Shown: piece by piece, positions 41,972 to 58,560 of the stretch | Numbering within the stretch: position 1 is the stretch's first letter | Layout of the letters: each line of letters begins with the position of its first letter | DNA from: Microlunatus soli | GTDB lineage: Bacteria > Actinomycetota > Actinomycetes > Propionibacteriales > Propionibacteriaceae | Direction of reading: 5' to 3' | DNA length: 64,000 nt | Assembly: GCF_900105385.1 (NCBI RefSeq) | Contig: NZ_LT629772.1 | Location: 2,108,001-2,172,000, forward strand | Notes under the pieces: generated by a model | The model's input: the letters and a program-made list of their open reading frames with translations, nothing else | Databases searched by the model: none | Told to the model about the DNA's origin: nothing | Translations under genes and position numbers: made by a program

Positions 41972-42244
41972 ATGGCAGCAGGTGATACGAAACGTCCGCA
42001 AAGGATGAGCGAGTCCGTCGGTGTCAGCCACGCCACGCTGGTCCGTCACTTCGGCAGCAAGGAGAAGTTGATCGCCGAGATCGACCCCGACGACCCGGAC
42101 CTCCTGCGTACGGTGCGGCGGCAGACAACCTCCCCCAGACAGGCTCAGGAATCGTCGAACGGAGACCGCCCTCCGGACGCGATGAAGTCGTCGATCGCAT
42201 GCTCCAGGACCGGCAACGGGACGCTCCCGAGGGACAGCACCTGA
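41972..42244 (+). pseudogene. TetR-family regulator remnant
   Basis: A short frame from ATG 41972 contains ESVGVSHATLVRHFGSKEKL and IAEI, the recognition helix and following helix of a TetR DNA-binding domain. The first ~15 residues lack the usual TetR helix 1 and nothing of the ligand-binding domain follows. The frame continues into the 3' end of the convergent peptidase gene, which may have been brought in by the same rearrangement. Confidence 0.6.
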
Positions 42245-43836
42245 TCATGGAAATTCGGCAGCGCGAAACGGTCCCCCAGCGTTCGCTCGGCCCGCTGCCG
42301 CAACTCCATGATCTTCTGCATGCCGAGGTAGTACGCAGTCGCCTGGCCCGGCCAGGCGATGTAACGGTCGACCTCGGTGACGATCTCGTGCTCGCTGATC
42401 GCCGTGTTGTCCCGCAGGTAGGCCTGAGCCTCGTCCCGCGACCAACCGAGGGCGTGCATGCCCGGATCGATCACCAGCCGGACCGCTCGCCACATCTGGT
42501 AGCTCAGCATCCCCATCATCTCGAACGGCGTGTCATACATCCCCATCTCGACGCCGAGCCGTTCGGTGTACAGCGCCCAGCCCTCGCCGAAGGCGGAGAT
42601 GTACTCCTTGCGCCGGAAGTCCGGCAGGTCGGTCATCTCCAACGCGAACGGGATCTGGAAGGCATGGCCGGGCGCCGCTTCGTGCAACGTCAGCGCCGGG
42701 ATCGAGTAGAGCGGCCGGGCCGGAAGGTTGTAGGTGTTCAGGATGTAGCGATGCGGCCCGCCCCGTCCGAAGGTGTAGAAGGGCGCCAGGTCCGGCGGCG
42801 GCTCCTCGATGCCGAATCGCATCCGGGGCAGCCGCCCGAAGTAGTGATGCGCGATGCCGTCGAACTTCTTGGCCTGCCAGGCGGCGAACTGCAGCAAGGC
42901 GGTCGCCGTCGTCGCGTAGAAGCTCGGATCGGTGCGCATGTGGCGCAACATCGCGTCGGCGTCCAGGAAGCCTGCACCGGCAGCGATCTCGGCCATCTCT
43001 GCACGGATCGCCGCCACGGCGTCAAGGCCGACCTGATGGATCTGCTGAGCGGTCAGCTCGGTCGTCGCATACTCACGGAGCAGGGCGGCGTACCAAGCCT
43101 CCCCGTCCGGTTGCTGGTGGGCAGCCAGCGCCGTCGGCAACGCCGGGAAGTATTCGTCGATGAAGAAGTCCAGCAGTGATCGATATGCGGGCATCACCTC
43201 CTGTTCGATCACCTGGCCGCCGGTCTTGATCAACGCTTCATGATCAGCAGCGGCCGGCAACGTGTCGAAGGGTGCGAAGAAGGCGCAGTCGGTCGCCGAC
43301 GATGCCTCGGCGACGGACCGGATCGTCGCCTCCCGCCCGACCATCGAGATCTGCGCCGGACCGAATCCGCGTCGTACGCCGGCCCGCATGTTCTCGATCT
43401 GCTGCTGGATGTAACGCGGAATCTGCCGAAGCCAGGCGGTGTAGGCCTCGGCCTCCTCGGCCGACCCGAGACGGCGTCGCGCCTGACCGGTCAGCTCCAT
43501 CCAGAAGGCGGAGTCGGCGTTGGCCGGGCGCTCGTACATCCGGAACCGCTGTTGATCGACCAGGGTGCGGATCTGATAGCGGTAGACGTCGAAGTCCGCC
43601 GCCTGTCGTCCGGTGAGCAGTGATCGATCGATCCGGTCCAGCCGGTCCAGCACCTGCTGCCAGTAGTCCTGTCGACGTCGTTGAGCTTGCGGTCCGACGT
43701 CGGGCAATCGTGGATCGAGCGGCTCCTCCAGCGCCGACATCGATTGGTCGCCCAGTTCCACGGCCCGCCAGACCGCCTCCTCGGTGTAGATCGAACCGAA
43801 CTGCTGGTAGGCGGTATCAGCATCCTGCGCGGTCAT
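42145..43836 (-). CDS. DUF885-family zinc metallopeptidase
   Basis: 563 residues, cytosolic-looking, no signal peptide. The catalytic zinc motif is HEAAPGH (in PALTLHEAAPGHAFQIPFAL), followed downstream by EGWALYTERLG and QATAYYLGMQKIMELR, all standard for DUF885. Characterised or predicted members act as carboxypeptidases or aminopeptidases on small peptides. ATG 43836 overlaps the stop of the upstream S10 gene by four bases (ATGA), so it is translationally coupled at the end of the ABC-peptidase operon. Confidence 0.9.
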   Translation of the reverse strand: MTAQDADTAYQQFGSIYTEEAVWRAVELGDQSMSALEEPLDPRLPDVGPQAQRRRQDYWQQVLDRLDRIDRSLLTGRQAADFDVYRYQIRTLVDQQRFRMYERPANADSAFWMELTGQARRRLGSAEEAEAYTAWLRQIPRYIQQQIENMRAGVRRGFGPAQISMVGREATIRSVAEASSATDCAFFAPFDTLPAAADHEALIKTGGQVIEQEVMPAYRSLLDFFIDEYFPALPTALAAHQQPDGEAWYAALLREYATTELTAQQIHQVGLDAVAAIRAEMAEIAAGAGFLDADAMLRHMRTDPSFYATTATALLQFAAWQAKKFDGIAHHYFGRLPRMRFGIEEPPPDLAPFYTFGRGGPHRYILNTYNLPARPLYSIPALTLHEAAPGHAFQIPFALEMTDLPDFRRKEYISAFGEGWALYTERLGVEMGMYDTPFEMMGMLSYQMWRAVRLVIDPGMHALGWSRDEAQAYLRDNTAISEHEIVTEVDRYIAWPGQATAYYLGMQKIMELRQRAERTLGDRFALPNFHDQVLSLGSVPLPVLEHAIDDFIASGGRSPFDDS

Positions 43837-45371
43837 CGCTGCACACTCCCCGGGACGTTGGCGATCACGAAGTCGGCGATGTCCCGCGACTGCGCGATCC
43901 GGGATTCCTCATGGACATACGTCATGTGGCCTGCCGGATAGTAGCGGCGGACGACACGATCGGTGATCTCGGTCGGTACGTCCAGATGATCAAGAACATA
44001 CTCCGAGGCGGAGAACGGTGTCGCGCCGTCGTAGTAGCCGAAGCCGACGTAGACGCCCATGTCCGGGTTGGCCCGCAGCGCCGCGCTGAGCTCTTCGGTG
44101 GCGGTGACACCGCGTCCCTCGAATTCCCTGTACGACCATGGCTGCACCCGACCGGAGAGGATCTCGTAGGCCAGGTCGGAGGTGAATCCCAGCTCACCAC
44201 GGACGTAGGCGTTGAAGGCAGCTGTGTAGGGGAAGAAGATGAACATGTGCGACGGATCGACCTCTTGGACCTCATTGTTGAGATCGGCAGGGGCCATCGT
44301 GAATCTGGTGTCCAACCGGCCGGTGTCGAGCCCGCGGTCGCGGAGCAGTTCGGCGAAGAAGCGCCGGTGCTCGATCCGGAATCGGGCCCGTCGGATGTAG
44401 CCGGCGTCCAGCCCGATCAGCTCCGACATGTCCTCGGCCAGGGCCTGTTGATCTTCCTCCGACAGTCGCGACCCCAGTGCCAGCGACGAAGCATAGGTCG
44501 TGGCGGCGAAGTCCCGAGCACGCTCGATCCGTTGCTCCACCTCGTCGGTACCGAGCCCTTGGTGGTAGGCGGCGGTGGCGGCGTAGGTCGGCAGGTAGTG
44601 CAGATAGGGAAGATCGTTTCCGCGGGTGAAACGGATCGTTGCGAAGTCGAGCACCGCGGAGATCAGGATGATGCCGTTCAGAGCGATGCCGTGCCGAGCC
44701 ACCAGATGGCCGGCCAGTGATGCAGCGCGCGTCGTGCCGTACGACTCGCCGGCCAGGAATTTGGGTGACAGCCAGCGTTGATGCCGTCCGAGCCAGATCC
44801 TGATCACTTCACCGACCAGGTCGCGGTCCCGGGTGTAGCCGTGATACTCGGTCGGCGATCCACCCACCACCGCCCGGGTGTAGCCGGTGGTCATCGGGTC
44901 GATGAAGACCAGATCGGCGTAGCGCAGCAGGGATTCGGGATTGTCGACCAGACCGTACGGCGCCGGTTGCGGATCGTCGACGTCGCCGGACAGCACGCGT
45001 CGCGGACCGAAGATGCCCAGGTGCAGCCAGACCGAGCTCGACCCCGGTCCGCCGTTGAAGGCGAAGACGACCGGCCGGTCGGTCCCGGCGTCCTTGGCCA
45101 GATACGACGTCACGAAGACCTCGGCCTTCGGCTTGACGCCGGCGAACTTCTCCTCCTCGACGGTCTCCTCACCGACCACCATCGTCCCGGTGATCGCCTG
45201 ATACTCCATCGCCCAGTCGGGACCGGTCAGTGTGTGATCGGTGCTGATCAGGTGATCGGTCGGGTCGGCCGCTCCGGCGCGATCGGTGCTGTCCGGCGCC
45301 TCCCGCCGTTCGGTCCGGTCGTCGGCGGGAGTCTGGCTGCTGGCGGGGTCTGCACCACGTTGGGTGGACAC
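43833..45371 (-). CDS. S10 serine carboxypeptidase-like protein
   Basis: 512 residues from GTG 45371, with an AGGAAAGGA ribosome site. Alpha/beta-hydrolase of peptidase family S10: oxyanion region FNGGPGSSSVWLHLG, nucleophile Ser in AGESYGTTRA, catalytic Asp region GVYVGFGYYDGATP and His in PAGHMTYVHEES. No signal peptide is present, so it probably acts in the cytoplasm on imported peptides, releasing C-terminal residues including proline-adjacent ones in this family. It sits between the ABC ATPase and the DUF885 peptidase on one leftward message. Confidence 0.92.
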   Translation of the reverse strand: MSTQRGADPASSQTPADDRTERREAPDSTDRAGAADPTDHLISTDHTLTGPDWAMEYQAITGTMVVGEETVEEEKFAGVKPKAEVFVTSYLAKDAGTDRPVVFAFNGGPGSSSVWLHLGIFGPRRVLSGDVDDPQPAPYGLVDNPESLLRYADLVFIDPMTTGYTRAVVGGSPTEYHGYTRDRDLVGEVIRIWLGRHQRWLSPKFLAGESYGTTRAASLAGHLVARHGIALNGIILISAVLDFATIRFTRGNDLPYLHYLPTYAATAAYHQGLGTDEVEQRIERARDFAATTYASSLALGSRLSEEDQQALAEDMSELIGLDAGYIRRARFRIEHRRFFAELLRDRGLDTGRLDTRFTMAPADLNNEVQEVDPSHMFIFFPYTAAFNAYVRGELGFTSDLAYEILSGRVQPWSYREFEGRGVTATEELSAALRANPDMGVYVGFGYYDGATPFSASEYVLDHLDVPTEITDRVVRRYYPAGHMTYVHEESRIAQSRDIADFVIANVPGSVQR

Positions 45372-45435
45372 TGCTACATCCTTTCCTGATCGGGGTTTTG
45401 GGCGTCAATGCGATCGGACGGGAACGGCAGGAGCT

Positions 45436-46314
45436 TCAGCCGAACTCGATCCGGGGAACTGCACTCAGCAGTGTCCTGGTGTAGTCGTCCTGCGGGTCGG
45501 TGAAGATCTGCTCCCGGGTACCGAGTTCGACCAGCCCACCGCGCTGCATCACCGCAACCCGGTGCGCGATCTGCCGGACGACGGCGAGGTCGTGGGTGAT
45601 GAACACGTAGCTGAAGCCTTCGTCGGCCTGCAGGTCCTTGAGCAGATCGATCACCTGCGCCTGCACCGAGACGTCCAATGCCGAGACCGCCTCGTCGCAG
45701 ATCACGATCTTCGGTCGGACCGAGATCGCGCGCGCGATCCCGATCCGCTGTGCCTGTCCGCCGGAGAACTGTGCCGGATGTCGGGACGCGTGATCGGGAT
45801 TCAGCCCGACCCGCTCCATCAGCTGCTGGGCATAGGCCCGATGGTTGCCGCCGGCCGGGGCCGGCAGTCGCTGGTAACGCAACGGTGCGGTGATGATGTC
45901 CGCGGCGGTGTGCCGGGGATTGAGCGAGGAGTAGGGGTCCTGGAAGACGACCTGGACCGCCCGCCGGAAGGACTGCAGGGCAGCGCCGGAGGCCTTCGTG
46001 ACGTCGACCCCGTCCAACTCGACGGTGCCGGACGTCGGCTCGATCAGCCGAGCGATCATCCGGGCTGTCGTCGACTTGCCGCTGCCCGACTCCCCTACCA
46101 GGGCGAGGGTTTCACCGCGGAGCAGGTCGAAGCTCACTCCGTCCACGGCACGGAAGCGGGACTTCTGTCTGATCAGCACGCCGCCGCCCCGGGTGTCGAA
46201 CTCCTTGGTCAAATCCAGGGCGGTGAGGATCGGCTGCGCCCCTGGACGCAACCCGGCGTCGCTGTCCGGCAGCCCGGCGGCCGCATCGACGGTGCGCGGT
46301 GTCGACGACGTCAT
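45436..46314 (-). CDS. Oligopeptide ABC transporter ATP-binding protein (DppF/OppF type)
   Basis: 292 residues. Complete ABC ATPase: Walker A GESGSGKST, Q loop VVFQDPYSSLNPRH, signature SGGQAQRIGIARA, Walker B ICDEAVSALDV and H loop FITHDL. The C-terminal DDYTRTLLSAVP is the peptide/nickel-type oligopeptide tail. ATG 46314 overlaps the upstream ATPase stop by four bases. It completes the two-ATPase pair of an oligopeptide importer. It precedes the S10 peptidase gene by 64 bp. Confidence 0.93.
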   Translation of the reverse strand: MTSSTPRTVDAAAGLPDSDAGLRPGAQPILTALDLTKEFDTRGGGVLIRQKSRFRAVDGVSFDLLRGETLALVGESGSGKSTTARMIARLIEPTSGTVELDGVDVTKASGAALQSFRRAVQVVFQDPYSSLNPRHTAADIITAPLRYQRLPAPAGGNHRAYAQQLMERVGLNPDHASRHPAQFSGGQAQRIGIARAISVRPKIVICDEAVSALDVSVQAQVIDLLKDLQADEGFSYVFITHDLAVVRQIAHRVAVMQRGGLVELGTREQIFTDPQDDYTRTLLSAVPRIEFG

Positions 46315-47171
46315 CTCCGATCTGCCCCCGTTCGCGGTGCCGGCAGCTCCGGGAAGTCGTCATCGATCCGCGGTGTCGCGGCGAGCAACATCCGGGTGTA
46401 GTCGGTCTGCGGAACCGTGAAGATCTGCTCCGCGGTGCCCGATTCGACCTGCCGCCCGTCCTTCATCACCACGATGTCATCGGCGATGCCGCTGATCACC
46501 GCCAGGTCGTGGGTGATGAAGAGCATCCCGGCACCGGTGTCACGTTGCAGGTCGGTCAGCAATTGCAGGATCTGCGCCTGGACGGTGACATCCAGCGCTG
46601 TCGTCGGCTCGTCGGCGATGATCAGCTCCGGCTCGCAACACAACGCCATCGCGATCATGATGCGTTGCCGCATCCCGCCGGAGAACTGATGCGGGTAGTG
46701 ATCGATCCGGTGTTCGGCGTCGGCGATGTGGACCCGCTCCATCGCCTCCATTGCGATCTTCCGGGCGGCCGCCATCGAGCCGCCGCGGTGGGCCAGGTAG
46801 GCCTCGGCGATCTGCAGTCCCACGGTGTAGTAGGGATTCAGCGAGGACAACGGGTCCTGGAAGACCATGGCCATCACCTCGCCGCGGAGTCCGCGGAGCT
46901 CGCCGTCGGTCAGTCCGATCAGTTCCCGATCATGCAGCCGGATCGACCCGGTCACCGCAGCACCGGGCGGCAGTAGGCCCATGATCGCCAACGAGGTCAT
47001 CGATTTGCCGGATCCGGACTCCCCGACCAGGCCGACAGTCCGACCGCGATCGATGCCGAAGCCGACATCGTCGACGACGGCGGTCGAGCCGAAGGTCACC
47101 TGCAGCCCGTCGATCGCCAGCAACCGCTCGCCGGTTGCCGCTGCTCCGGATGATCCTGCCGGCGTTGCCAT
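46311..47171 (-). CDS. Oligopeptide ABC transporter ATP-binding protein (DppD/OppD type)
   Basis: 286 residues from ATG 47171. Walker A GESGSGKSM, Q loop MVFQDPLSSLNPYYTVG, signature SGGMRQRIMIAMAL, Walker B IADEPTTALDV and ITHDL. The C-terminal oligopeptide segment QTDYTRMLLAATP is present. The D-type partner of the adjacent F-type ATPase. Its start is 3 bp after the permease stop on the same operon. Confidence 0.93.
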   Translation of the reverse strand: MATPAGSSGAAATGERLLAIDGLQVTFGSTAVVDDVGFGIDRGRTVGLVGESGSGKSMTSLAIMGLLPPGAAVTGSIRLHDRELIGLTDGELRGLRGEVMAMVFQDPLSSLNPYYTVGLQIAEAYLAHRGGSMAAARKIAMEAMERVHIADAEHRIDHYPHQFSGGMRQRIMIAMALCCEPELIIADEPTTALDVTVQAQILQLLTDLQRDTGAGMLFITHDLAVISGIADDIVVMKDGRQVESGTAEQIFTVPQTDYTRMLLAATPRIDDDFPELPAPRTGADRR

Positions 47172-47174
47172 CGC

Positions 47175-48170
47175 TCACACCGCCTTGATCCGGACCCGTG
47201 GGTCCAGGAACTGATAGGCCAGATCGACGATGATGTTGGAGATCACCACGAAGAACGCGGCCAGCAGGGTAACTGCCATGATCACCGGCTGGTCGTTCTT
47301 CCCGATCGCGTCGTAGGCGAGTTTGCCGACCCCGCTCAGGCCGAACACGGTCTCGGTGATCAGCGCGCCACCGAGCAGCGTCGCGATGTCCATTCCGAAG
47401 ATCGTCACGACCGGTGTCAGCGCCGGACGCAGTGCATGCCGGCGCAGGATCAGTCCGGGTGGCAGCCCCTTGGCGCGCGCTGTCCGCAGGAAGTTCTCCG
47501 ACAGCGTGTCGAGCACGTTGGCCCGGGTCAAGCGGGCATACATCGAGGCATACATCAGCGCCAGCACCATCCACGGCATGATGTAGGTCTGGAACCAGTG
47601 CAGCGGGTCGTCGAAGAAGTGCGCTTCGGACGGGAACGGCAGCACCTTCAGCTTGACCACCAGCACATACTGCAGGACCAGAGCGACGAAGTAGTTCGGC
47701 AACGAGATGCCGCCGAGGGCGAACATCATCGCTCCCCGATCCCACCAGGTCCCCTGTTTGATCGCACTGACCAGTCCGGCGACGACTCCGCTCAGCAGCC
47801 AGAGCAGTGCCGCACCCAGCGCGACGGTGACCGAGACCGGGATCCGGTCGGCGATCAGATCGGTCACCGCGGCACGATTCTGGAAGCTGTAGCCCAGACA
47901 GGGGGCGTCGCAGCGGATCAAACCGGCGCCGCTGCCGTAGTCGCGCCCGACGAAGATCCCGGCGACGAAGGTGAGGAACTGCACGGCGAACGGGCGGTCC
48001 AGTCCGAGCTGGGTCCGGATGTTGTCGATCGTCTCCGGGGTGCAGGTCTGCCCGCAGATCAGCACCGCCGGATCAGGGGACAGCTTGAAGAAGATCACGA
48101 AGGTGAAGAACACCACCGCCAGCAGCGTCACCGCCGCGAGCCCGACCCGGCGCACCAGGTAGCCGATCAT
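47175..48170 (-). CDS. Oligopeptide ABC transporter permease (DppB/OppB type)
   Basis: 331 residues with six transmembrane helices, starting MIGYLVRRVGLAAVTLLAVV, the standard DppB N-terminus, and a long external loop between helices 1 and 2. The EAA-loop equivalent is YARLTRANVLDTLSENFLRTARAKGLPPG, with the FGLSGVGKLAYDAIGKND signature near the C-terminus. The ATG at 48170 overlaps the stop of the C-type permease (48167), a coupled pair. Confidence 0.93.
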   Translation of the reverse strand: MIGYLVRRVGLAAVTLLAVVFFTFVIFFKLSPDPAVLICGQTCTPETIDNIRTQLGLDRPFAVQFLTFVAGIFVGRDYGSGAGLIRCDAPCLGYSFQNRAAVTDLIADRIPVSVTVALGAALLWLLSGVVAGLVSAIKQGTWWDRGAMMFALGGISLPNYFVALVLQYVLVVKLKVLPFPSEAHFFDDPLHWFQTYIMPWMVLALMYASMYARLTRANVLDTLSENFLRTARAKGLPPGLILRRHALRPALTPVVTIFGMDIATLLGGALITETVFGLSGVGKLAYDAIGKNDQPVIMAVTLLAAFFVVISNIIVDLAYQFLDPRVRIKAV

Positions 48171-49123
48171 GACAACCCTCCACGCGGGTCGAGGATGCGC
48201 TGCAGTTGATCACCGATCAGTGTGAAGGAGAGTACGGTGAGGAACAGGAACAGACCCGGGATCATGAAGTACGCGGGGTCGACGGTGTACCAGCTGACAG
48301 CCTTGGCGATCATCTGCCCCCAGGACGGCGTCGGCGGGGTCAGACCGATGCCCAGGAAGGACAGTCCGGCCTCGGTGCCGATGTAGGACGGCACCGCCAA
48401 CGTGCTCATCACGATGATCGTTCCGGTCAGATTCGGCAGCAGCTCGGTGAAGATCACCCGCAGTCTGCTGCCGCCGGAGGCGATCGCCGCCTCGACGAAC
48501 TCGCGCTTGCTCAGCGACATCGTCTGGCCGCGGATCACCCGGGCGATGTAGGGCCAGCCGAAGACGCTCAACACACCGACCAGCAACAGCGGCCGGTTGC
48601 TGTCCGGCAGTGCCGACAGCAGGGCGATCATGAAGATCAACGCGGGGAACGCCATCAGAAAGTCCATCAGCCGCGACACGATCTGATCGGCACGGCCACC
48701 GAAGAAGCCGGCGACCATCCCCAGCACGGTGCCGAAGACGGTGGTCAGCACGGTCGCCGACAGCGCGATCGCCATCGATGCCCGAGCGCCATGCACGATC
48801 CGGGCGAAGATGTCTCGCCCGTTCTGCGGTTCGACCCCGAACCAGTGCTCGGCGCTGATCCCGCCGAACGGTCCCTTGGGTAGGCCACCGGTGTTGGCGT
48901 CGATCGCGGCCTGATCGAAGACGTACGGGTCGTGGCCGCTGACGGCGGTGATCAACGGGGCGAAGATCGCCATCAGGATCACCATCGTCAGGAACCCGAA
49001 GCACACCGCCACCGACGGCTTGCTGATCAGCCGTCGGAAGATCCCGGTGCCGCCGGTGCCGCCGGTGCCGCTCGCCGGAGCAGCAGAGCCCCGCTCGGCG
49101 ACCAGTTGCCCCGGGGTGCTCAT
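48167..49123 (-). CDS. Oligopeptide ABC transporter permease (DppC/OppC type)
   Basis: 318 residues, an N-terminal helix then a five-helix permease core. The EAA region SLSKREFVEAAIASGGSRLR and the C-terminal YIGTEAGLSFLGIGLTPPTP and WGQMIAKAV are diagnostic for DppC. The N-terminal ~30 residues are a Gly-rich cytoplasmic stretch. Begins 4 bp after the binding-protein stop and is coupled to the B-type permease by a four-base overlap. Confidence 0.92.
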   Translation of the reverse strand: MSTPGQLVAERGSAAPASGTGGTGGTGIFRRLISKPSVAVCFGFLTMVILMAIFAPLITAVSGHDPYVFDQAAIDANTGGLPKGPFGGISAEHWFGVEPQNGRDIFARIVHGARASMAIALSATVLTTVFGTVLGMVAGFFGGRADQIVSRLMDFLMAFPALIFMIALLSALPDSNRPLLLVGVLSVFGWPYIARVIRGQTMSLSKREFVEAAIASGGSRLRVIFTELLPNLTGTIIVMSTLAVPSYIGTEAGLSFLGIGLTPPTPSWGQMIAKAVSWYTVDPAYFMIPGLFLFLTVLSFTLIGDQLQRILDPRGGLS

Positions 49124-49127
49124 CGGC

Positions 49128-50879: not shown

Positions 50880-50980
50880 CAGTCGCCACTCCTGATCGTT
50901 GAGGTCACGACGGTCGGCGGATCGGCCGGTGCGATGTCTCGGTTGCTGATCGAACACGTCGCAATCGGCACCATGTGCCA

Positions 50981-50990
50981 TGTGATATTG
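50981..50990. promoter_or_regulatory. Candidate GntR operator upstream of the ABC operon
   Basis: TGTGATATTG lies between the leftward binding-protein gene and the GntR gene. Its reverse complement, CAATATCACA, resembles GTAATATGTCACAC, the reverse complement of 51841-51854 before the oxidoreductase gene. Both carry an AATAT plus TCACA core in an otherwise GC-rich setting. Confidence 0.35.
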
Positions 50991-51165
50991 CAGACTAGCG
51001 AGCACGACCGGCGCGACACCAGGGGTCGAAGCGACGTAATCAATCCTTAACGAAGTTCGGAGCTTGCACCGACTCGCCGGTACAGCACCGCCGGCACGGA
51101 GATAATCACCCCAGCGGCGATCGATCGGCCAGCACCAGCGACGGGATCTGTGAGGACGAAGCGAG

Positions 51166-51828
51166 ATGACACCAATCGGCAAACTGCGGCAGGCCTCCAG
51201 CCTGCGGCAACAGGTGGAAGAGGAGATTGCGGCGGCGATCGTGTCCGGCGAGATGGCCCCCGGGGAACTCGTCTCCGCACCCACCCTGGCCGCTCGTTTC
51301 GAGGTGTCGGCAACCCCGGTGCGGGAGGCGATGCTCAACCTGGAGAAGCGGGGGTTCGTGGCCGCCGTCCGCAACAAAGGGTTCCGGGTCACCGAGGTGG
51401 ACCAGGACGCCCTGACCCGACTCGCCCAGGTGCGACATCTGCTCGAACCGGAGGCGATGGCACTGCTGGCGCCGCGCTTCACTCCCGAGATGGCCACCCG
51501 CGCCCGGGCGGTCGCCGACGACATCGTGGCCGGCGCAGCGGGTGAGGACCTGGCGAAGTACCTGACGGCCGACCGCGCCTTCCATCTGTTGCTACTGGAG
51601 TTCCTCGGCAACGGCTATCTGGTCGAGATCGTCGCCGATCTCCGGGAACGCACCCGGCTGGTCGGGCTCACCGACCTGCTGCATACCCGGCGGCTCGAGG
51701 CCTCCGCCGCCGAACATCATCAACTCGTCGACGCCCTCGAAGCGCACGACGCCGACGCCGCCCGGGATCTGATGCATCGACACATCGGTCACGTCACGGG
51801 GTGGTGGTCCGGCGCCGAAGAGCGTTAG
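51166..51828 (+). CDS. GntR-family (FCD) transcriptional regulator
   Basis: 220 residues from ATG 51166. N-terminal winged helix: SLRQQVEEEIAAAIVSGEM, APTLAARFEVSATPVREAML, NLEKRGFVAAV. The C-terminal FCD ligand domain has the metal-type residues in the DRAFHLLLLEFLGNGYLVEI and HHQLVDALEAHDAD helices. FCD regulators commonly respond to carboxylic or amino acids. It lies between the two divergent halves of the (hydroxy)proline region, so it is the obvious local regulator. The next gene begins 33 bp later. Confidence 0.9.
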   Translation: MTPIGKLRQASSLRQQVEEEIAAAIVSGEMAPGELVSAPTLAARFEVSATPVREAMLNLEKRGFVAAVRNKGFRVTEVDQDALTRLAQVRHLLEPEAMALLAPRFTPEMATRARAVADDIVAGAAGEDLAKYLTADRAFHLLLLEFLGNGYLVEIVADLRERTRLVGLTDLLHTRRLEASAAEHHQLVDALEAHDADAARDLMHRHIGHVTGWWSGAEER

Positions 51829-51840
51829 AGTGACCGCGAT

Positions 51841-51857
51841 GTGTGACATATTACTAA
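51841..51857. promoter_or_regulatory. Candidate operator and -10 before the oxidoreductase operon
   Basis: GTGTGACATATTACTAA is AT-rich amid GC-rich sequence and related to the site at 50981. TATTAC (51849-51854) could be the -10, placing the transcription start at about 51861, the GTG of the oxidoreductase. A repressor bound here would cover the promoter. Confidence 0.35.
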
Positions 51858-51860
51858 TCC

Positions 51861-53084
51861 GTGGCGCCTCACCCGGGCCGGTCTGATCCGGTGAGATCGG
51901 GCGAGGTGCAGACCGACGCGATCGTCGTCGGCGCCGGCATCGTCGGCGCCGCGTGCGGCTATGCCCTCGCCCGTTCCGGCTTGGCCGTGACCGTCCTGGA
52001 AGCCGCGGCAGCCGCCAGCGGCACCAGCGGGCAGGGCGAGGGCAATCTGCTGATCTCGGACAAGGAGCCGGGACCGGAGTTGGCACTGGCCCGCTACTCG
52101 CTGGGGTTGTGGGACGCCCTGGAGGAAACCCTCCGCGACCGGCTGCCACCCGGGCTCGGCCCGATCGAGTACGAACGCAAGGGCGGCCTGGTCGTCGCCA
52201 CCACCGACGCCGGTGTCCGACCACTGCTGCGGTTCGCCGCGAGTCAGCGGGCGGCCGGTGTCGACGCCCGACCGATCGATCATGAACACGCTCTGGCCCT
52301 GGAGCCGGCGCTCAACCCCGCCGTGACCGCCGCCGTGCACTATCCCGAGGACGCGCAGGTGCAGCCGGTGATCGCCACCGAGACGTTGCTGGCGGCGGCT
52401 CGCAGCCACGGCGGCCGGACGCTCTTCGGGCAGCGTGTCACCGGCCCGATCCGCGATGCCGGCGGCAGACTGGTCGGCGTCCGAACCGCCACCGGCGAGC
52501 ATCGCGCCGGCCATGTCGTGTTGGCCTGCGGCCCCTGGTCGGGCGCGGTGGCCGATCGGTTCGGAGCCCGGATTCCGGTCGGGCCCCGACGTGGCGTCAT
52601 CCTGGTCACCTCCCGGATGCCGCATCGCATCTTCGGCAAGGTGTACGACGCCGACTACGTCGGGGCCGTGGGTTCGGATGATCAAGATCTGCAGACCTCC
52701 AGCGTGATCGAGTCCACCGCAGCCGGCAATGTGCTGGTCGGATCATCACGTCGGCGCAGCGGCTTCGATCAGAGCTTCGACCTCGAGGCGATCGCCGAGA
52801 TCGCCGCCAAGGCGATCCGGATCTTTCCCTTCCTGGCAACGGCTTCGGTGATTCGCAGCTACGGCGGCTTCAGACCGTTCATGCCCGATCACCTGCCGGC
52901 GATCGGGCCCGATCCGCGGGTCAAGGGGCTCTGGCACGCGACCGGACACGAGGGCGCGGGCATCGGACTCAGCCTCGGCACCGCCGAAATGATCACCGAC
53001 CTGATCACGGGTCGTGAACCGCACCTCGACGCAGCCCCGTTCGATCCGGGCCGTCCGGCCCTGCAGGAGGTGACGTCGGGATGA
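51861..53084 (+). CDS. FAD-dependent oxidoreductase, DAO-fold (D-hydroxyproline dehydrogenase catalytic-type subunit)
   Basis: 407 residues, no signal peptide. FAD-binding GxGxxG in AIVVGAGIVGAACGYALARS, then VTVLEAAA and the DAO-fold C-terminus HATGHEGAGIGLSLGTAEMI. Belongs to the glycine oxidase/D-amino-acid dehydrogenase family. With the small 2Fe-2S protein and the larger flavoprotein that follow, it forms the three-subunit set described for cis-4-hydroxy-D-proline dehydrogenase (lhp system). GTG 51861 is used, with GTG 51891 as an alternative. The stop overlaps the next start. Confidence 0.88.
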   Translation: MAPHPGRSDPVRSGEVQTDAIVVGAGIVGAACGYALARSGLAVTVLEAAAAASGTSGQGEGNLLISDKEPGPELALARYSLGLWDALEETLRDRLPPGLGPIEYERKGGLVVATTDAGVRPLLRFAASQRAAGVDARPIDHEHALALEPALNPAVTAAVHYPEDAQVQPVIATETLLAAARSHGGRTLFGQRVTGPIRDAGGRLVGVRTATGEHRAGHVVLACGPWSGAVADRFGARIPVGPRRGVILVTSRMPHRIFGKVYDADYVGAVGSDDQDLQTSSVIESTAAGNVLVGSSRRRSGFDQSFDLEAIAEIAAKAIRIFPFLATASVIRSYGGFRPFMPDHLPAIGPDPRVKGLWHATGHEGAGIGLSLGTAEMITDLITGREPHLDAAPFDPGRPALQEVTSG

Positions 53085-53383
53085 CTGCACCGGTGCCCGG
53101 TCAGCAGATCACGCTGCGAGTCGACGGGGTCGAGATCACGGCCCGCGACGGGCAGAGCATCGCCGCGGCGATGATGGCCGACGGCCGGGCCTCGTGGCGC
53201 ACGACCGCCGCCGGACGCCGACCCCGCGGCCTGTTCTGCGGTATCGGCGTCTGTTTCGACTGCCTGGTCACGGTCAACGGGGCCCGCGACGTCCGGGCCT
53301 GTCAACGTCCGGCGATCGACGGCGACCTGATCGAGTTCCAGGACGAGGAGCTGCCGGGCCCGGTCGCGAGGGACCTACGGTGA
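53081..53383 (+). CDS. [2Fe-2S]-binding subunit of the D-hydroxyproline-type dehydrogenase
   Basis: 100 residues. A ferredoxin-like small subunit: Cys53, Cys58 and Cys61 in LFCGIGVCFDCLV and Cys74 in VRACQ, i.e. C-x4-C-x2-C-x12-C, typical of the gamma subunit of heterotrimeric sarcosine/D-amino-acid/hydroxyproline oxidoreductases. Start overlaps the previous stop (ATGA at 53081). Its stop (53381-53383) overlaps the GTG start of the flavoprotein at 53380, so all three subunits are coupled. Confidence 0.88.
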   Translation: MTAPVPGQQITLRVDGVEITARDGQSIAAAMMADGRASWRTTAAGRRPRGLFCGIGVCFDCLVTVNGARDVRACQRPAIDGDLIEFQDEELPGPVARDLR

Positions 53384-54840
53384 CGGCCGGCCGGCAGAGC
53401 TCGACACGACGCCGAGTGATCATCATCGGCGCCGGACCGGCCGGGTTGGCTGCTGCCGATGCCGCCCTGCGCCGTGCTGCAGCGATCGTGCTGATCGATT
53501 CCGCGCCGCGGCTCGGTGGCCAGTTCTGGCGGCATCCGTCGCCGACACTGGACGCCGACGAGTCCCTGCAGCACAACTGGTCCCGCTTCACCGATCTACG
53601 GTCCTCGATCCGCGACAACCCGGCGGCCGAGGTGATCACCGAGGGCCAGGTCTGGGCGATCGACCGCGAACCGGGACGACGGACTCCGCGGATCCAGCTG
53701 GCGACCGGACCTGTGGATGGCCCGGGTCGAGAGCTGAGCAGCCTCACCGGCGATGCCGTGGTGCTCGCCACCGGAGCGCACGATCGCACACTTCCCTTCC
53801 CTGGTTGGGATCTTCCGGGTGTGGTCACCGGTGGTGCGGCGCAGGCGATCGCCAAGGCCGATCGGATCAGTGTCGGTGGCCGCGACCGGGCCCGGGTGGT
53901 GGTGGCCGGTGCCGGCCCCTTCCTGCTCCCCGTCGCGACCTCGTTGGCGGCAGTCGGGGCTCGAGTCCTCGGCGTGTACGAGGCTGCGACGATCCGCAGG
54001 ATGTCTCGCGGTTGGCTGCCCCGAGCGCCATGGTTGGCCGGCAAGTCACCGGAACTGACCGGTTACCTCGCCCGGCTCGCCCGGCACCGGATCCCCTACC
54101 ACCCCGGCCACGCGGTGCTCCGAGCCGACGGTGACGATCGAGTCCGTCGGATCACGATCGCCCGGGTGGACGACGATTGGCGACCGGTTGCCGGCACCGA
54201 ACGACAGCTGGAGGTCGACGCTGTCTGCGTCAGCCACGGGTTCACACCCCGGGTCGAGCTGCCGATCGCTGCCGGCTGTCGACTCACCCCGGAACGCTTC
54301 GTCCAGGTCGATGCCGGGCAACGCACATCAGTGGACGACGTGTACGCCGCCGGTGAGATCACCCGGATCGGTGGCGCCGATGCCGCCCTGGTCGAGGGCG
54401 GCATCGCCGGCCACCTTGCCGCCGGCGGTGCCATCAACGACGCCGAACTCGGCGGTCTGTTCGCAGCCAAGCGCCGCCTGGATCGCCTCGCCGACAGCGT
54501 CGACGACGCGCACGGGATCGGCACCGGCTGGACCGACTGGCTGACCGACGAGACGCTCATCTGCCGCTGCGAAGAGGTCACCAACGGCCGTGTCCGCAGC
54601 GCACTGGAGGCGACCGGCTCGCGCGGTCTGCGAGCGGTCAAGCTGAGCACCCGCGCCGGTCTGGGTCCGTGCCAGGGCCGGATCTGCGGACGGACCCTTG
54701 AACAGCTGATCTCGGCCGGCGGACCGTTGACCGACGATGCGGTCATCGACCGACGACCGATCGCGACACCGATCCGATTCGGTGAGCTCGCCCGGCTCAC
54801 CGATGATCAAGAAATCGACAACCAAGGAAGTGACCAGTGA
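53380..54840 (+). CDS. FAD/NAD(P)-binding oxidoreductase, alpha-type subunit with BFD-like domain
   Basis: 486 residues from GTG 53380. N-terminal FAD motif IIIGAGPAGLAAADAAL, second dinucleotide motif VVVAGAGPFLLPVATSLAAV, GEITRIGGADAALVEGGIAG, and a C-terminal bacterioferritin-associated-ferredoxin-like [2Fe-2S] domain with CRCEEVT and GPCQGRICG. This matches the alpha subunit of heterotrimeric D-hydroxyproline/opine-type dehydrogenases, accepting electrons from the catalytic subunit through the small Fe-S protein. Overlaps the deaminase-like gene start at 54837. Confidence 0.9.
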   Translation: MTAGRQSSTRRRVIIIGAGPAGLAAADAALRRAAAIVLIDSAPRLGGQFWRHPSPTLDADESLQHNWSRFTDLRSSIRDNPAAEVITEGQVWAIDREPGRRTPRIQLATGPVDGPGRELSSLTGDAVVLATGAHDRTLPFPGWDLPGVVTGGAAQAIAKADRISVGGRDRARVVVAGAGPFLLPVATSLAAVGARVLGVYEAATIRRMSRGWLPRAPWLAGKSPELTGYLARLARHRIPYHPGHAVLRADGDDRVRRITIARVDDDWRPVAGTERQLEVDAVCVSHGFTPRVELPIAAGCRLTPERFVQVDAGQRTSVDDVYAAGEITRIGGADAALVEGGIAGHLAAGGAINDAELGGLFAAKRRLDRLADSVDDAHGIGTGWTDWLTDETLICRCEEVTNGRVRSALEATGSRGLRAVKLSTRAGLGPCQGRICGRTLEQLISAGGPLTDDAVIDRRPIATPIRFGELARLTDDQEIDNQGSDQ

Positions 54841-55787
54841 CCAAGACAGCTCCCCGCGACCCGAATCTCGGTGGTGTGGTCGTCGCCACCGCCCTGCCCT
54901 ACCGCGAGGACACCTCGGCGCCGGCCGGACTCGCCGTCGACCATGATCGCTTCGCCGAACACTGCAGCTGGCTGCTGGACAACGGCTGCCACGGCGTCGG
55001 TCCGAACGGATCTCTCGGCGAATACTCCTCGCTCACCGACGACGAACGCCGGCGGGTGATCAAGACCGCGGTCGCCGCCGTCGATGACCGCGGCATCGTG
55101 ATCGCCGGCGTCCATGCGCCGGGCTCGCATCTCGCCAGACACTGGGCCGAACTCGCCGCTGAGGACGGTGCCGACGCCGTGCTCTGTCTGCCGCCGACGA
55201 TGTATCGCGCCAGCCACCGACAGATCGTCGAGCACTACACCGAGGTCGCCTCGGTCGGACTGCCGGTGATGATCTACAACAACCCGATCGACACCAAGGT
55301 CGACCTGGTCCCCGAGCTGGTCGCCGAGATCAGCCAGATCGACAATGTCGTTGCGGTGAAGGAATTCTCCGGCGACGTCCGGCGCGCGTTCCGGATCGCC
55401 GAGCTCTGCGACATCGATGTCATCGCCGGTGCCGACGACGTCCTGTTCGAGCTGCTGGTGGACGGTGCGGTGGGCTGGTTCGCCGGCTTCCCGAACGCGT
55501 TCCCCGCCGAGTCGGTCGAGCTGTACGAGCTGGTCCGGGCCGGTCGGATCGACGAGGCCCGAGAGCTCTACCGCAACCTGGTGGCAGTGTTCCGCTGGGA
55601 CTCGCGGACCGAGTTCGTGCAGGCGATCAAGCTCAGCATGGACATGATCGGTCGCTACGGCGGTCCGTGCCGGCCGCCCCGCGGCGCCCTGACCGCCGAG
55701 CACGAGGCCCAGGTGCGGGCCGAGACCGAGCATGCGATCAAGGTGCTCGCCGACCGGACACCGACCGATCTGAGTCCCGTCAAGTGA
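54837..55787 (+). CDS. Dihydrodipicolinate-synthase-family lyase (pyrroline-4-hydroxy-2-carboxylate deaminase candidate)
   Basis: 316 residues, TIM-barrel class I aldolase/deaminase. Schiff-base lysine Lys175 in NVVAVKEFSGD, catalytic Tyr147 in VMIYNNP, and HGVGPNGSLGEYSSLTDDER near the N-terminus. In hydroxyproline pathways the family member (LhpC-type) deaminates delta1-pyrroline-4-hydroxy-2-carboxylate to alpha-ketoglutarate semialdehyde. The position between the dehydrogenase and the epimerase supports that role rather than lysine synthesis. GTG 54837 overlaps the upstream stop. Confidence 0.85.
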   Translation: MTKTAPRDPNLGGVVVATALPYREDTSAPAGLAVDHDRFAEHCSWLLDNGCHGVGPNGSLGEYSSLTDDERRRVIKTAVAAVDDRGIVIAGVHAPGSHLARHWAELAAEDGADAVLCLPPTMYRASHRQIVEHYTEVASVGLPVMIYNNPIDTKVDLVPELVAEISQIDNVVAVKEFSGDVRRAFRIAELCDIDVIAGADDVLFELLVDGAVGWFAGFPNAFPAESVELYELVRAGRIDEARELYRNLVAVFRWDSRTEFVQAIKLSMDMIGRYGGPCRPPRGALTAEHEAQVRAETEHAIKVLADRTPTDLSPVK

Positions 55788-55806
55788 CCTCGCAGGAAGT
55801 GCTGGC

Positions 55807-56808
55807 ATGAGAGCGTCCAAGATCATCCAGGCCATCGACACCCACACCGAAGGAATGCCGACCCGGGTCGTCACCGGCGGCGTCGGCACCATCCCCGGTG
55901 CGACGGCCAACGAGCGCCGGTTGCATTTCATGGAGCACCTTGATCATCTGCGGCACTTCCTGATGGACGAGCCGCGCGGGCACCCGGCTATGAGCGGCGC
56001 GATCCTGCAGCCGTCGACCCGGCCGGATGCCGACTGGGGTGTGGTCTACATCGAGGTCTCCGGCTGCCTGCCGATGTGCGGTCACGGCACCATCGGCGTG
56101 GCCACCGCGCTGGTCGAGGCCGGCATGGTGCCGGTGACCGAACCGGTGACCACCATCAGGCTGGACACCCCGGCCGGCCTGGTGGTGGCCCGGGTCGCGG
56201 TCTCCGACGGACACGCCGATGCGGTGACCATCGAGAACGTTCCGTCCTTCTGCGAACGGCTGGACGCCACGGTCGACGTCCCCGGTTACGGCGTCGTGCC
56301 CTACTCATTGGCCTTCGGTGGCAACTACTATGCGATGGTCGATCTGGACGCCGTCGGGCTGCCCTTCGATCGGGCAAGATCCGACGACATCCTGGCCTGC
56401 GGACTGGCGATCATGGAGGCGATCAACGGCACCGCCCCGCCCAAGCATCCGGAGATCTCCGGTGTCGACCACTGCCACCACGTCGAGTTCATCGCGCCCG
56501 GTTCGAACGCCGTACACTCCCGGCACGCGATGGCGATCCATCCTGGCTGGTTCGACCGATCCCCTTGTGGCACAGGAACCTCGGCACGAATGGCCGAGCT
56601 GTGGGCGCGCGGTGAGCTGGCCCTGGACACCGACTTCGACAACGAGTCCTTCATCGGCGGCCACTTCACCGGTCGGCTGATCGGCGAGACGGCGGTGGGC
56701 GACCGCAAGGCGGTGATCCCGACGATCACCGGACGGGCCTGGGTCAGCGGGCTGAACCAGTATCTGCTGGACCCCAGCGACCCCTTCCCCACCGGCTTCA
56801 TCTTCTGA
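55807..56808 (+). CDS. Proline racemase-family epimerase (4-hydroxyproline 2-epimerase candidate)
   Basis: 333 residues. Both catalytic cysteines are present: Cys91 in MCGHGT and Cys254 in SPCGTGTSA, so this is a two-cysteine racemase/epimerase, not the dehydratase with Thr at the first position. The family interconverts trans-4-hydroxy-L-proline and cis-4-hydroxy-D-proline (LhpA-type), or proline enantiomers. Adjacent dehydrogenase and deaminase genes favour the hydroxyproline substrate. Cytosolic, preceded by AGGAAG, 19 bp after the lyase gene. Confidence 0.9.
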   Translation: MRASKIIQAIDTHTEGMPTRVVTGGVGTIPGATANERRLHFMEHLDHLRHFLMDEPRGHPAMSGAILQPSTRPDADWGVVYIEVSGCLPMCGHGTIGVATALVEAGMVPVTEPVTTIRLDTPAGLVVARVAVSDGHADAVTIENVPSFCERLDATVDVPGYGVVPYSLAFGGNYYAMVDLDAVGLPFDRARSDDILACGLAIMEAINGTAPPKHPEISGVDHCHHVEFIAPGSNAVHSRHAMAIHPGWFDRSPCGTGTSARMAELWARGELALDTDFDNESFIGGHFTGRLIGETAVGDRKAVIPTITGRAWVSGLNQYLLDPSDPFPTGFIF

Positions 56809-56902
56809 ACGATGGCAGGTGCCGATTCTCGGCCGCCGCAGCGCACCTCGTGACCACAACCTCACACACCACGGCTTCACAGCACCACCGATTCACCGCA
56901 GC

Positions 56903-56950
56903 ACGGCAACACAGCAACACGGCAACACGGCAACACGGCAACACGGCAAG
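56903..56950. repeat. 8-bp microsatellite adjoining the permease ribosome site
   Basis: Six units of ACGGCAAC (the second reads ACAGCAAC, the last ACGGCAAG) run directly into the AAGGAG ribosome site (56948-56953) before ATG 56959. Copy-number change would lengthen the untranslated region in 8-base steps without moving the ribosome site relative to the start. Confidence 0.75.
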
Positions 56951-56958
56951 GAGCGACG

Positions 56959-58560
56959 ATGCCCCAAGCAGGTTTCAAACGGCAGGTCTCGATGCTGGAT
57001 CTGACCTTCGTCGGATTCGGCGCGATCTTCGGCTCCGGATGGCTTCTCGCGGCCGGCAAGGTGTCCGGCCTCGCCGGACCGGCGGGCTGGGTGTCCTGGG
57101 TGATCGGCGGCGTCGCCGTGTTGCTGCTCGGTCTGGTGTATGCCGAGCTCGGGGCGGCCGTACCCCGGGCGGGCGGGATCATCCGCTACCCGCTCTACTC
57201 GCACGGCCCACTACTCGGCTACCTGATGGGGTTCATCACGCTGATCGCATTCTCCAGCCTGATCGCAGTCGAGGTCGAGGCGGCACGGGAGTATGCCGCG
57301 TCCTGGTGGCCGGCGCTGACCAGACCGGACTCGACGTCTCCGACCGTGCTCGGCTGGTTCTTCCAGGTGGCGCTGTTGGTGATCTTCTTCCTGCTGAACT
57401 TCTGGACCGTGCGCACCTTCGCCAAGTCCAACACGGTGATCACGATCTTCAAGTTCGTGGTGCCGCTGGTGACCGTGGTCGCGCTGTTCACCGTCTTCAA
57501 GCCGGACAACTTCAGCTCGCACGGTTTCGCGCCGTTCGGAGCCGGCGGGATCCAGGAAGCGGTCGCCGGCGGCGGTGTGATCTTCGCCTACCTCGGCCTG
57601 CAACCGATCGTCAGTATGGCCAGTGAGGCCAAGTCTCCGCAGCGGACGATCCCGGTCGCGTTGATCTTGTCGGTGCTGCTGTCCACCATCGTCTACGTCG
57701 TGCTCCAGGTCGTCTTCATCGGCGCGCTGCCGGCCGACGGGCTCGCCGACGGATGGGCCGCGGTGCCGGACAAGTTCAGTCTGCCGTTCAAGGACATCGC
57801 GCTCGCGGCCGGGATGGGGTGGCTGGTCGTCTTCATCGTGATCGACGCGATGATCTCCCCGTCCGGTACCGGCAACATCTACATGAACTCCACCAGCCGG
57901 GTCGTCTACGGCTGGGCGCGCAACCGGACCCTGTTCGGGGTGTTCGCCAAGATCGACGAACGCTCCGGAATCCCGCGACCGGCGCTGTGGTTGACCCTGG
58001 TGCTGGCGGTCTTCTGGACCCTGCCGTTCCCGTCCTGGGATGTCTTGGTGAACGGCGTTTCCGGGGCACTGATCCTGTCCTACGCGATCGCGCCGATCTC
58101 GGCCGCGGCGTTCCGGCGCCGGTTGCCCGATCTGCATCGTCCGTTCCGGCTCCGCGCGTTTGCGGTGATCGCTCCCGCGTCGTTCGTGATCGCATCGTTC
58201 ATCGTCTACTGGACCGGTTGGAGCACGATCTGGTGGCTGATCGGATCTCAGGTGCTCCTCTTCTGCCTGTACCTGCTGTTCCGCCGCAGGGTGCCGACCG
58301 ACCAGGTGCCCTTCGGTCAGCAGATCCGTTCCTCGGTCTGGCTGATCGCCTACTACATCGCGATGTTGATCATCTCAGCACTCGGCGGGTACGGCGGCCT
58401 GGACCTGCTGCCCGCACCACTGGACCTGATCCTGGTCGGCGTGGCCGCGCTCGGCGGCTACCTGTGGTCGCTGCGCAGCGCACTGCCGGTCACCGAACTC
58501 GACGAGGACGTCGTACAGGACGACACCGACGAAGTCCCCTCGGCCCGCACCCGACAGTGA
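56959..58560 (+). CDS. APC-superfamily amino acid permease
   Basis: 533 residues with about 12 transmembrane helices from ATG 56959 (AAGGAG 5 bases upstream). APC motifs: LDLTFVGFGAIFGSGWLLAA at the N-terminus, LIAFSSLIAVEVEAA in helix 3 and FAYLGLQPIVSMASEAKSPQ in helix 6. The loop and tail end acidic (DEDVVQDDTDEV). Location at the end of the hydroxyproline gene set suggests import of hydroxyproline, proline or a related amino acid, complementing the peptide ABC importer. Confidence 0.9.
   Translation: MPQAGFKRQVSMLDLTFVGFGAIFGSGWLLAAGKVSGLAGPAGWVSWVIGGVAVLLLGLVYAELGAAVPRAGGIIRYPLYSHGPLLGYLMGFITLIAFSSLIAVEVEAAREYAASWWPALTRPDSTSPTVLGWFFQVALLVIFFLLNFWTVRTFAKSNTVITIFKFVVPLVTVVALFTVFKPDNFSSHGFAPFGAGGIQEAVAGGGVIFAYLGLQPIVSMASEAKSPQRTIPVALILSVLLSTIVYVVLQVVFIGALPADGLADGWAAVPDKFSLPFKDIALAAGMGWLVVFIVIDAMISPSGTGNIYMNSTSRVVYGWARNRTLFGVFAKIDERSGIPRPALWLTLVLAVFWTLPFPSWDVLVNGVSGALILSYAIAPISAAAFRRRLPDLHRPFRLRAFAVIAPASFVIASFIVYWTGWSTIWWLIGSQVLLFCLYLLFRRRVPTDQVPFGQQIRSSVWLIAYYIAMLIISALGGYGGLDLLPAPLDLILVGVAALGGYLWSLRSALPVTELDEDVVQDDTDEVPSARTRQ

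Follow-up and report, generated by a model that had tools for sequence, protein, structure and literature searches.

Hydroxyproline regulons that reach out to peptides and parent proteins are already known in bacteria, by prediction in gammaproteobacteria and partly by experiment in Streptomyces coelicolor. In S. coelicolor, HypR acts as a repressor with hydroxyproline as the inducer, deletion of the epimerase gene abolishes growth on hydroxyproline while growth on proline is kept, and the regulon extends to a protein-degrading enzyme, the M9 collagenase SCO5912 (PMC6608401). In the HypR regulons predicted for gammaproteobacteria, a single GntR regulator governs collagenases and a proline di/tripeptide permease as well as proline (di)peptidases and hydroxyproline catabolism (PMC5343134), and a 21-kb collagen cluster of Colwellia BB5 combines an M9 collagenase, a prolyl aminopeptidase, a hydroxyproline dipeptidase, a transporter, a prolyl isomerase (PPIase) and hydroxyproline genes (PMC7883544). 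Neighborhoods of 4-hydroxyproline epimerases hold DAO, DHDPS and aldehyde dehydrogenase (ALDH) genes, hydroxyproline supports growth of S. lividans, which induces neighbor genes of these types, and ATP-binding cassette (ABC) transporters and peptidases adjoin t3HypD members in Bacilli (PMC4113996). The HypBA1/HypBA2/HypAA system of Bifidobacterium longum couples a GH127 enzyme with an importer for the arabinose chains of hydroxyproline-rich glycoproteins (PMC7263609). Here we analyzed a locus of the actinobacterium Microlunatus soli in which an oligopeptide-type ABC importer and two putative peptidases adjoin a hydroxyproline operon. The window, i.e., the whole 64-kb stretch of DNA that was analyzed, is G000:C1:2108001-2172000 of the 6.73-Mb single-contig genome (G000), and feature coordinates are given as positions within it.

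The locus shares with the S. coelicolor regulon its catabolic gene order and domains, the GntR/FCD repressor and a semialdehyde dehydrogenase encoded elsewhere, but Table 2 of that report contains neither a peptide importer nor a cytoplasmic peptidase, and SCO6295 is a multidrug-type ABC protein (PMC6608401). The gammaproteobacterial regulons belong to another phylum and employ the peptidases PrdP, AmpP and YpdF, with no S10, DUF885 or GH127 protein in the accessible part of the account (PMC5343134). The Colwellia cluster uses MFS/TonB uptake and PutR, and the sections consulted describe no family-5 ABC importer (PMC7883544), whereas the B. longum system imports sugar and not peptide, with no hydroxyproline catabolism in the portion of the report at hand (PMC7263609). 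Likewise, the survey of epimerase neighborhoods, as far as it was available, describes no set of family-5 ABC importer, prolyl peptidase and GH127 (PMC4113996). The preliminary description of the locus had considered the joining of peptide uptake and hydrolysis to hydroxyproline catabolism undescribed. Given the gammaproteobacterial and Colwellia likenesses in print, the combination is not entirely new, but the actinobacterial form appears to be so: the combination of importer, prolyl peptidase, GH127 and hydroxyproline genes in actinobacteria was not found in the open-access literature searched, mostly at listing level. Within that literature, what is new comprises an ABC importer arm in actinobacteria together with the operator of this arm, the module of GH127, M24 and hydrolase, and the exchange by which Microlunatus came to use S10 and DUF885. 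We consider it probable that the M. soli locus is a HypR-type regulon for feeding on hydroxyproline-containing peptides.

The rightward operon, on the forward strand, has the domain content and order of SCO6289-SCO6293, with a GntR/FCD gene alongside (HypR is SCO6294). It encodes a predicted three-subunit D-hydroxyproline dehydrogenase, namely a DAO-type subunit (51861-53084, PF01266, counterpart of SCO6289; the true start may be slightly downstream), a 2Fe-2S subunit (Fer2_4, 53081-53383, PF13510; SCO6290) and a FAD/NAD-type subunit with a BFD domain (53380-54840 with an inferred start, PF07992 (Pyr_redox_2) and PF04324 (Fer2_BFD); SCO6291), followed by a DHDPS-family protein (54837-55787, PF00701; SCO6292), a predicted 4-hydroxyproline 2-epimerase of the Pro_racemase family (55807-56808, PF05544, 405 bits) and an APC-family amino acid permease (AA_permease_2, 56959-58560, PF13520). 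The permease is 69% identical to one adjoining the core genes in Flexivirga (L165) and is a likely route of free (hydroxy)proline uptake. In the epimerase, the catalytic Cys pair is present (MCGH at 90, SPCGTGT at 252), and alignment places Ser63 at R1 (MSGAI vs. MFGSI of AsProR) and His225 at R2 (HHVEF vs. DLVEI of AsProR). Site 5 is Ile in the alignment with 6j7c, which we take to be TlProR, and fits neither published class (Cys/Tyr would be expected for the hydroxyproline type). Ser or Val instead of Phe at R1 and His instead of Leu or Cys at R2 are described as signs of hydroxyproline epimerases (PMC1964878, PMC4364671); because of Ser at R1, His at R2 and the Cys/Cys pair, the pocket is, by its residues, of the hydroxyproline type and not that of a proline racemase. 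The protein scored under all NCBIfam cut-offs (PRK13971 at 326 of 376 bits), with a proline racemase model as its best match (343 vs. 556), and the five best solved matches were all deposited as proline racemase. A pathway for proline or D-proline instead of hydroxyproline, towards which these matches lean, nevertheless receives almost no credence from us, as the Ser and His of the pocket speak against a proline racemase identity and the DHDPS-family deaminase and three-subunit dehydrogenase occur as in SCO6289-SCO6293, the system whose epimerase mutant grew on proline and not on hydroxyproline. Operon order and pocket residues bear out the earlier assignment of this half to the 4-hydroxyproline pathway, and every gene that the preliminary description had named for the leftward and rightward units is an open frame with a matching Pfam domain at the coordinates reported here.

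Besides this epimerase, the M. soli genome encodes a second, distant member of the proline-racemase family (G000:C1:3427380-3428324, 29% identical). Four relatives (G003, G014, G017 and G019) each carry two more epimerase-family copies, 38-43% identical and ~4-16 kb apart, which possibly represent a trans-3-hydroxyproline pathway. A PutA-like proline dehydrogenase/aldehyde dehydrogenase fusion is found 3' of the epimerase in Microlunatus kin (L063, L065, L095).

Comparison was based on 80 named loci with 39 genus labels (1.54 Mb), representing the best 80 of 399 confirmed epimerase relatives and scored by tblastn with core genes at 40% identity or more; the rows are related, the counts are not independent, and some contigs end early. 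Further sets were 146 relatives' genomes, 32 stretches of relatives' loci (0.61 Mb), a class scan of 296 class genomes picked without regard to linkage (binding protein cut-off E<=1e-120) and, as controls, 12 loci around unlinked S10 genes (200 kb). The closest epimerases among the relatives' genomes were 88% (G006), 87% (G012) and 86% (G007) identical, all from the same genus, and that of Microlunatus endophyticus (L095) is 87% identical. Core genes recurred widely in the named loci (DHDPS in 80, PyrR in 76, Fer2 in 72, DAO in 70 and GntR in 61). The final enzyme of the pathway, alpha-ketoglutarate semialdehyde dehydrogenase, is absent from the M. soli locus; an aldehyde dehydrogenase was scored in 62 of the 80 named loci, and the best own-genome match to it (47% identical, G000:C1:5120989) sits 3' of a fumarylacetoacetate-hydrolase-family gene, the two genes spanning L193:6623-9356. 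A gene of that family together with an aldehyde dehydrogenase is the arrangement of oxidative pentose routes, and the enzyme may perhaps be shared with such a route via alpha-ketoglutarate semialdehyde.

The leftward operon, on the reverse strand, encodes all five parts of an Opp/Dpp-type importer: a family-5 solute-binding lipoprotein (SBP_bac_5, 49131-50879, PF00496, 250.6 bits), permeases of the OppC/DppC type (48167-49123, PF00528 (BPD_transp_1)) and OppB/DppB type (47175-48170, PF19300 and PF00528), and ATPases of the OppD/DppD type (46311-47171) and OppF/DppF type (45436-46314), both with PF00005 and an oligo_HPY match slightly below cut-off. Orthologues of this importer, defined by a permease of at least 50%, an ATPase of at least 58% or a binding protein of at least 44% identity, were present in 28 of the 80 loci and 16 of the 39 genus labels; 31 loci had an Opp-type importer of any kind. 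Relative to the core, the orthologues take at least four placements: upstream in either divergent or co-directional orientation, immediately downstream, or, in M. endophyticus, ~6 kb downstream and behind a PutA-like gene. OppB/DppB-type permease orthologues beside the core elsewhere are mostly 53-79% identical, and none of the 12 control loci held an importer orthologue at scoring level (one had a 34% ATPase). The class scan recovered the binding protein in ten genomes, all with an epimerase compared with 74 of 296 overall, and within 15 kb of it in six; leaving out the own genome, the association is 9/9 (hypergeometric P 2e-6, uncorrected for kinship). Looser matches (to E 1e-90) had an epimerase in 11 of 31 further genomes, 35% vs. 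25% overall, and the tie to the epimerase thus belongs to this binding-protein subfamily. In several loci that lack the Opp-type importer (L101, L103, L107, L110, L131, L144, L172 and others), the core lies beside hydantoinase/oxoprolinase A and B genes or ribose- or branched-chain-type ABC importers.

A HypR-like GntR/FCD regulator gene (51166-51828, forward strand, PF00392 and PF07729) separates the two halves, with one predicted operator in the gap to the importer (50974-50994, core TGCCATGTGATATTGCA) and one before the dehydrogenase operon (51835-51855, core ATGTGTGACATATTAC). Sites were scored with a position weight matrix built from 28 training sites that precede core or regulator genes; sites ahead of binding-protein or DUF885 genes did not enter the training. 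The two sites scored 18.9 and 19.9, respectively, and none of 444 null regions was as high as 18.9 (highest, 15.2); they are also the only sites of at least 11 in the window, while the control loci contained one such site and none of at least 15 in 200 kb. The 9-bp core ATRTSAYAT occurred 47 times in the 80 named loci, compared with 2.6 in block shuffles, and 45 of these matches lay within 450 bp 5' of a scored locus gene; the relatives' loci contained nine (vs. 1.8 in shuffles) and the control loci none. Where the binding protein was present (17 of the 80 loci; 16 orthologues and one at 28% identity), a site always stood at the operon head, in 12 loci before the binding protein itself at scores of at least 15 and in five before a preceding GH127 gene (12.5-20.9). 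This site is shared with a divergent regulator in nine of the 17, whereas the binding protein has a site of its own in the other eight, i.e., in M. endophyticus (17.4), Microterricola, Actinosynnema, Actinoplanes, Kineosporia, Symbioplanes and two Streptomyces. Sites were likewise found in class-scan genomes with an unlinked importer (G234, 24.2; G314, 19.8), with a probable one in G268 (16.9) and a weak one in G339 (11.1). The operator palindrome resembles the footprinted S. coelicolor HypR operator, TGC(A/C)ATGTCAC (PMC6608401). Co-regulation of the two halves, which the preliminary description had left as a point to be decided, has gained a shared predicted operator: the importer and dehydrogenase operons are predicted to be controlled together by the HypR-like GntR protein via the two sites.

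A pattern search of the own genome gave three matches, two of them the sites from which the pattern was written, compared with one for the pattern read backwards. The third (G000:C1:6505205), before an MFS transporter gene near an IclR gene, was taken as a chance match or the site of another regulator. Some importer-less loci with hydantoinase/oxoprolinase or other ABC genes carry the same operator.

Two putative peptidases complete the leftward operon. The S10-family serine carboxypeptidase-like protein (43833-45371, reverse strand) has a weak Pfam match (PF00450, 34.8 bits; cut-off 21.9) and no solved relative at E 0.01, but its Ser-Asp-His triad motifs can be read in the sequence (GESYG 208, YYDGATP 446, GHM 481). 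The DUF885 putative zinc metallopeptidase (42145-43836, reverse strand; PF05960, 463 bits) shows the zinc-site motif HEAAPGH at 385 and EGWA downstream at 418, is assigned by Pfam to the Peptidase_MA clan (PMC12572635) and is related to the solved, functionally unnamed structures 3o0y, 3iuk and 3u24. No signal peptide was seen in either protein in a by-eye reading, and both therefore look cytoplasmic. Free-standing importer-DUF885 operons in G009 (L304:3719-10813) and G004 (L305:9685-16830) tie DUF885 to oligopeptide import.

In the named loci, other genes lie between importer and core: an M24/AMP_N Xaa-Pro aminopeptidase (29 of 80 loci, 16 labels), a proline-iminopeptidase-like alpha/beta hydrolase (25 of 80, 14 labels; below NCBIfam cut-offs) and a GH127 protein with a Pfam-confirmed domain (15 of 80, 7 labels). 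Gene associations were contrasted in those 65 loci whose flanks were complete. The hydrolase was found in 19 of 29 loci with an Opp-type importer vs. 6 of 36 without (Fisher P 9e-5) and M24 in 19 of 29 vs. 9 of 36 (Fisher P 0.002); seven of these nine importer-less M24 loci are from Glycomyces, with M24 or the hydrolase at the stretch edge, so that an importer could lie just outside. Among the class-scan genomes, GH127 adjoins the binding protein in all five others whose binding protein is at least 51% identical, the Xaa-Pro aminopeptidase and/or the iminopeptidase-like hydrolase follow 3' of the ATPases in those runs, and G342 (L274/L275) has the order GH127-importer-hydrolase-M24-GntR-core in a single run. 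By-eye reading revealed no signal peptide in the GH127 proteins encoded beside the binding protein. A Pfam-confirmed M9 collagenase gene lies between M24 and the hydroxyproline dehydrogenase in G413 (L276) and G279 (L278), with operator-like sites.

Because B. longum HypBA1 splits arabinobiose from hydroxyproline-linked chains (PMC7263609) and GH127 has been read as acting on the arabinose of extensin hydroxyproline (PMC4454575), gene content favors plant hydroxyproline-rich glycoprotein as the source where GH127 is present and collagen where M9 is present. In other genera, the orthologous loci contain GH127 and prolyl peptidases, which point to the plant proteins proposed as a source in the preliminary description. 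The M. soli locus itself has neither GH127 nor M9; four GH127-family matches, one of them weak, occur elsewhere in the own genome, and M9 collagenase had no match there in a search whose controls were also silent.

Gene identities, the pocket type of the epimerase, the co-conservation of importer and core and the operator-like sites are observations at the level of sequence, and they are consistent with the following route. Outside proteases or glycosidases would free peptides, the family-5 ABC importer would take the hydroxyproline peptides in, and cytoplasmic S10 and DUF885 enzymes would cut them to amino acids. 4-Hydroxyproline would be converted to the D form by the epimerase and oxidized by the three-subunit dehydrogenase, and the product would be deaminated by the DHDPS-family deaminase to alpha-ketoglutarate semialdehyde. 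Conversion of the latter into alpha-ketoglutarate would fall to an aldehyde dehydrogenase encoded outside the locus, and the APC permease would import the free imino acid. The GntR protein would repress both halves, by binding to the two sites, until hydroxyproline or a product appears. As the natural source, plant hydroxyproline-rich glycoproteins would be preferred over collagen.

A series of observations on the spread of the genes, the operators, the binding protein and GH127 weighs against this reading. No Opp-type importer was present in the stretch examined for 49 of the 80 named loci, several of which have other transporter types, and G006, with the closest epimerase, has the core without importer, S10, DUF885 or a site of at least 11 in the stretch taken. 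Among the 146 relatives' genomes, G000 and G007 alone have S10 near the epimerase, and no named locus has it there; DUF885 lies beside the core only in G000, M. endophyticus and G007 (32 relatives' and 80 named loci). An ABC-S10-DUF885 block conserved as such, as the preliminary description had envisaged, is not borne out, S10 being linked only in those two genomes and DUF885 only in Microlunatus kin; what holds beyond the genus is the co-conservation of the importer with the core, and by their distribution the two peptidases are a Microlunatus speciality. The S. coelicolor word alone, with one mismatch allowed, was at chance in the window (1 vs. 2.0 expected), and only matrix score and site position carry weight for the operator.

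The closest importers by sequence, in G009 (60%) and G004 (58%), belong to the same series: they are accompanied by DUF885 and unlinked to hydroxyproline genes, none of which occurred in the 19-28 kb taken, G004 had no epimerase match at E 1e-60, and a good operator is missing from both (respectively, a single site of 11.7 at a large distance upstream and no site of at least 9). In the tree of binding proteins, both group with M. endophyticus and the window in a four-row clade (100/100). These genomes suggest an alternative, possible if rather unlikely, in which the peptide operon, with its DUF885 gene, serves Microlunatus for general oligopeptide import and simply lies next to the hydroxyproline operon, perhaps borrowing the promoter region of the latter. 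However, a larger clade (100/99) encloses the Microlunatus clade, and most other members of the larger clade are linked to hydroxyproline genes, a proportion inflated by the many rows picked for linkage. From this nesting, the link to hydroxyproline appears to go back to the ancestor of the larger clade, with part of Microlunatus having lost it or never fixed it. Furthermore, the M. endophyticus importer lies downstream of the core and has an operator of its own, and one of the two sites in the window precedes the importer.

The binding protein itself gives a warning. It has Ala476 (GWCSAW) where OppA has Asp (GWCADY), a residue that we take to be OppA Asp419/DppA Asp408 and that presumably holds the alpha-amino group, i.e., the N-terminus, of the peptide. 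This Asp (GWCPD) is kept in 20 of 20 other orthologues of at least 46% identity, several of them close kin, and in four of four at 40-42%, but is lost in all four Microlunatus binding proteins (Ala, Gly, Gly and a Thr-Gly stretch), although paralogues in three of these four genomes keep it; the window's binding protein may thus not bind ordinary peptides. GH127 was not tied to the importer in the loci with full flanks (7 of 29 with vs. 8 of 36 without). Moreover, a GH127 protein from beside the binding protein (L155) is nearest to 6ex6 (E 1.9e-101), ahead of B. longum HypBA1 (3wkw, 1.7e-85), and its best NCBIfam model, far under cut-off, is aceric acid hydrolase; by these matches, its nearest solved relative and model are not HypBA1.

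The loss of Asp in the Microlunatus clade, the GH127 genes beside the binding protein in the other class genomes, and a mannoside-binding family-5 protein among the solved matches of the window's binding protein would suit an importer that carries beta-L-arabino-oligosaccharides or hydroxyproline-arabinosides instead of peptides. Sugars are within the ligand range of family-5 binding proteins, and in B. longum the GH127 enzyme is paired with an importer that has an arabinobiose-binding protein (PMC7263609). We regard sugar import as improbable, however, since the closest solved chain is that of an oligopeptide-binding protein (OppA2, 2wok, E 4.9e-76), the binding proteins of other genera keep the Asp, prolyl peptidase genes follow the ATPases in the very runs that contain GH127, and the window locus has peptidases and no GH127.

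With import of hydroxyproline-containing peptides retained as the preferred reading, the changes in Microlunatus can be set side by side. M24 and the iminopeptidase-like hydrolase are not beside the importer in any of the four Asp-less Microlunatus genomes, DUF885 stands behind it in three of them (in the window together with S10), and in M. endophyticus a cyclophilin gene lies behind the importer and DUF885 beside the regulator. The loss of an N-terminal anchor paired with the loss of N-terminal exopeptidases may form a coherent whole. A broader scheme, which we put forward tentatively and with low confidence, is that across Actinobacteria one HypR regulon imports whole beta-L-arabinosylated extensin peptides, from which GH127 would strip the sugar inside the cell, M24 and the hydrolase would trim prolines, and the hydroxyproline would be burned. 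Microlunatus would have re-tuned this regulon, losing the N-terminus anchor and the N-terminal peptidases and gaining DUF885 (here also S10), to feed on hydroxyproline peptides that are N-blocked or processed at the C-terminus. In plant cell walls, hydroxyproline-rich glycoproteins are a resistant component whose complete breakdown by soil bacteria is poorly mapped, and a regulon of import, prolyl peptidases, GH127 and hydroxyproline burning would offer a testable route and candidate ligands for this importer subfamily. DUF885 peptidases and cytoplasmic actinobacterial S10 enzymes would likewise gain a candidate role in physiology.

The cyclophilin-type prolyl isomerase gene that closes the M. 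endophyticus importer run (L287:5745-6296) recalls the Colwellia collagen cluster, in which PPIases also occur. Within each operon of the M. soli locus, neighboring genes overlap by 4 bp or are separated by at most 33 bp, except for the S10/ATPase (64 bp) and epimerase/permease (150 bp) gaps, and this packing suggests two operons flanking the GntR gene. No RNA element was above threshold at 38000-62000, and promoter and terminator scans of the locus gave matches no more frequent than in shuffles. The 150-bp gap between the epimerase and APC permease genes contains seven copies of the 8-bp repeat CACGGCAA (56894-56949), which end just 5' of the permease start; a change in copy number could affect expression of the permease.

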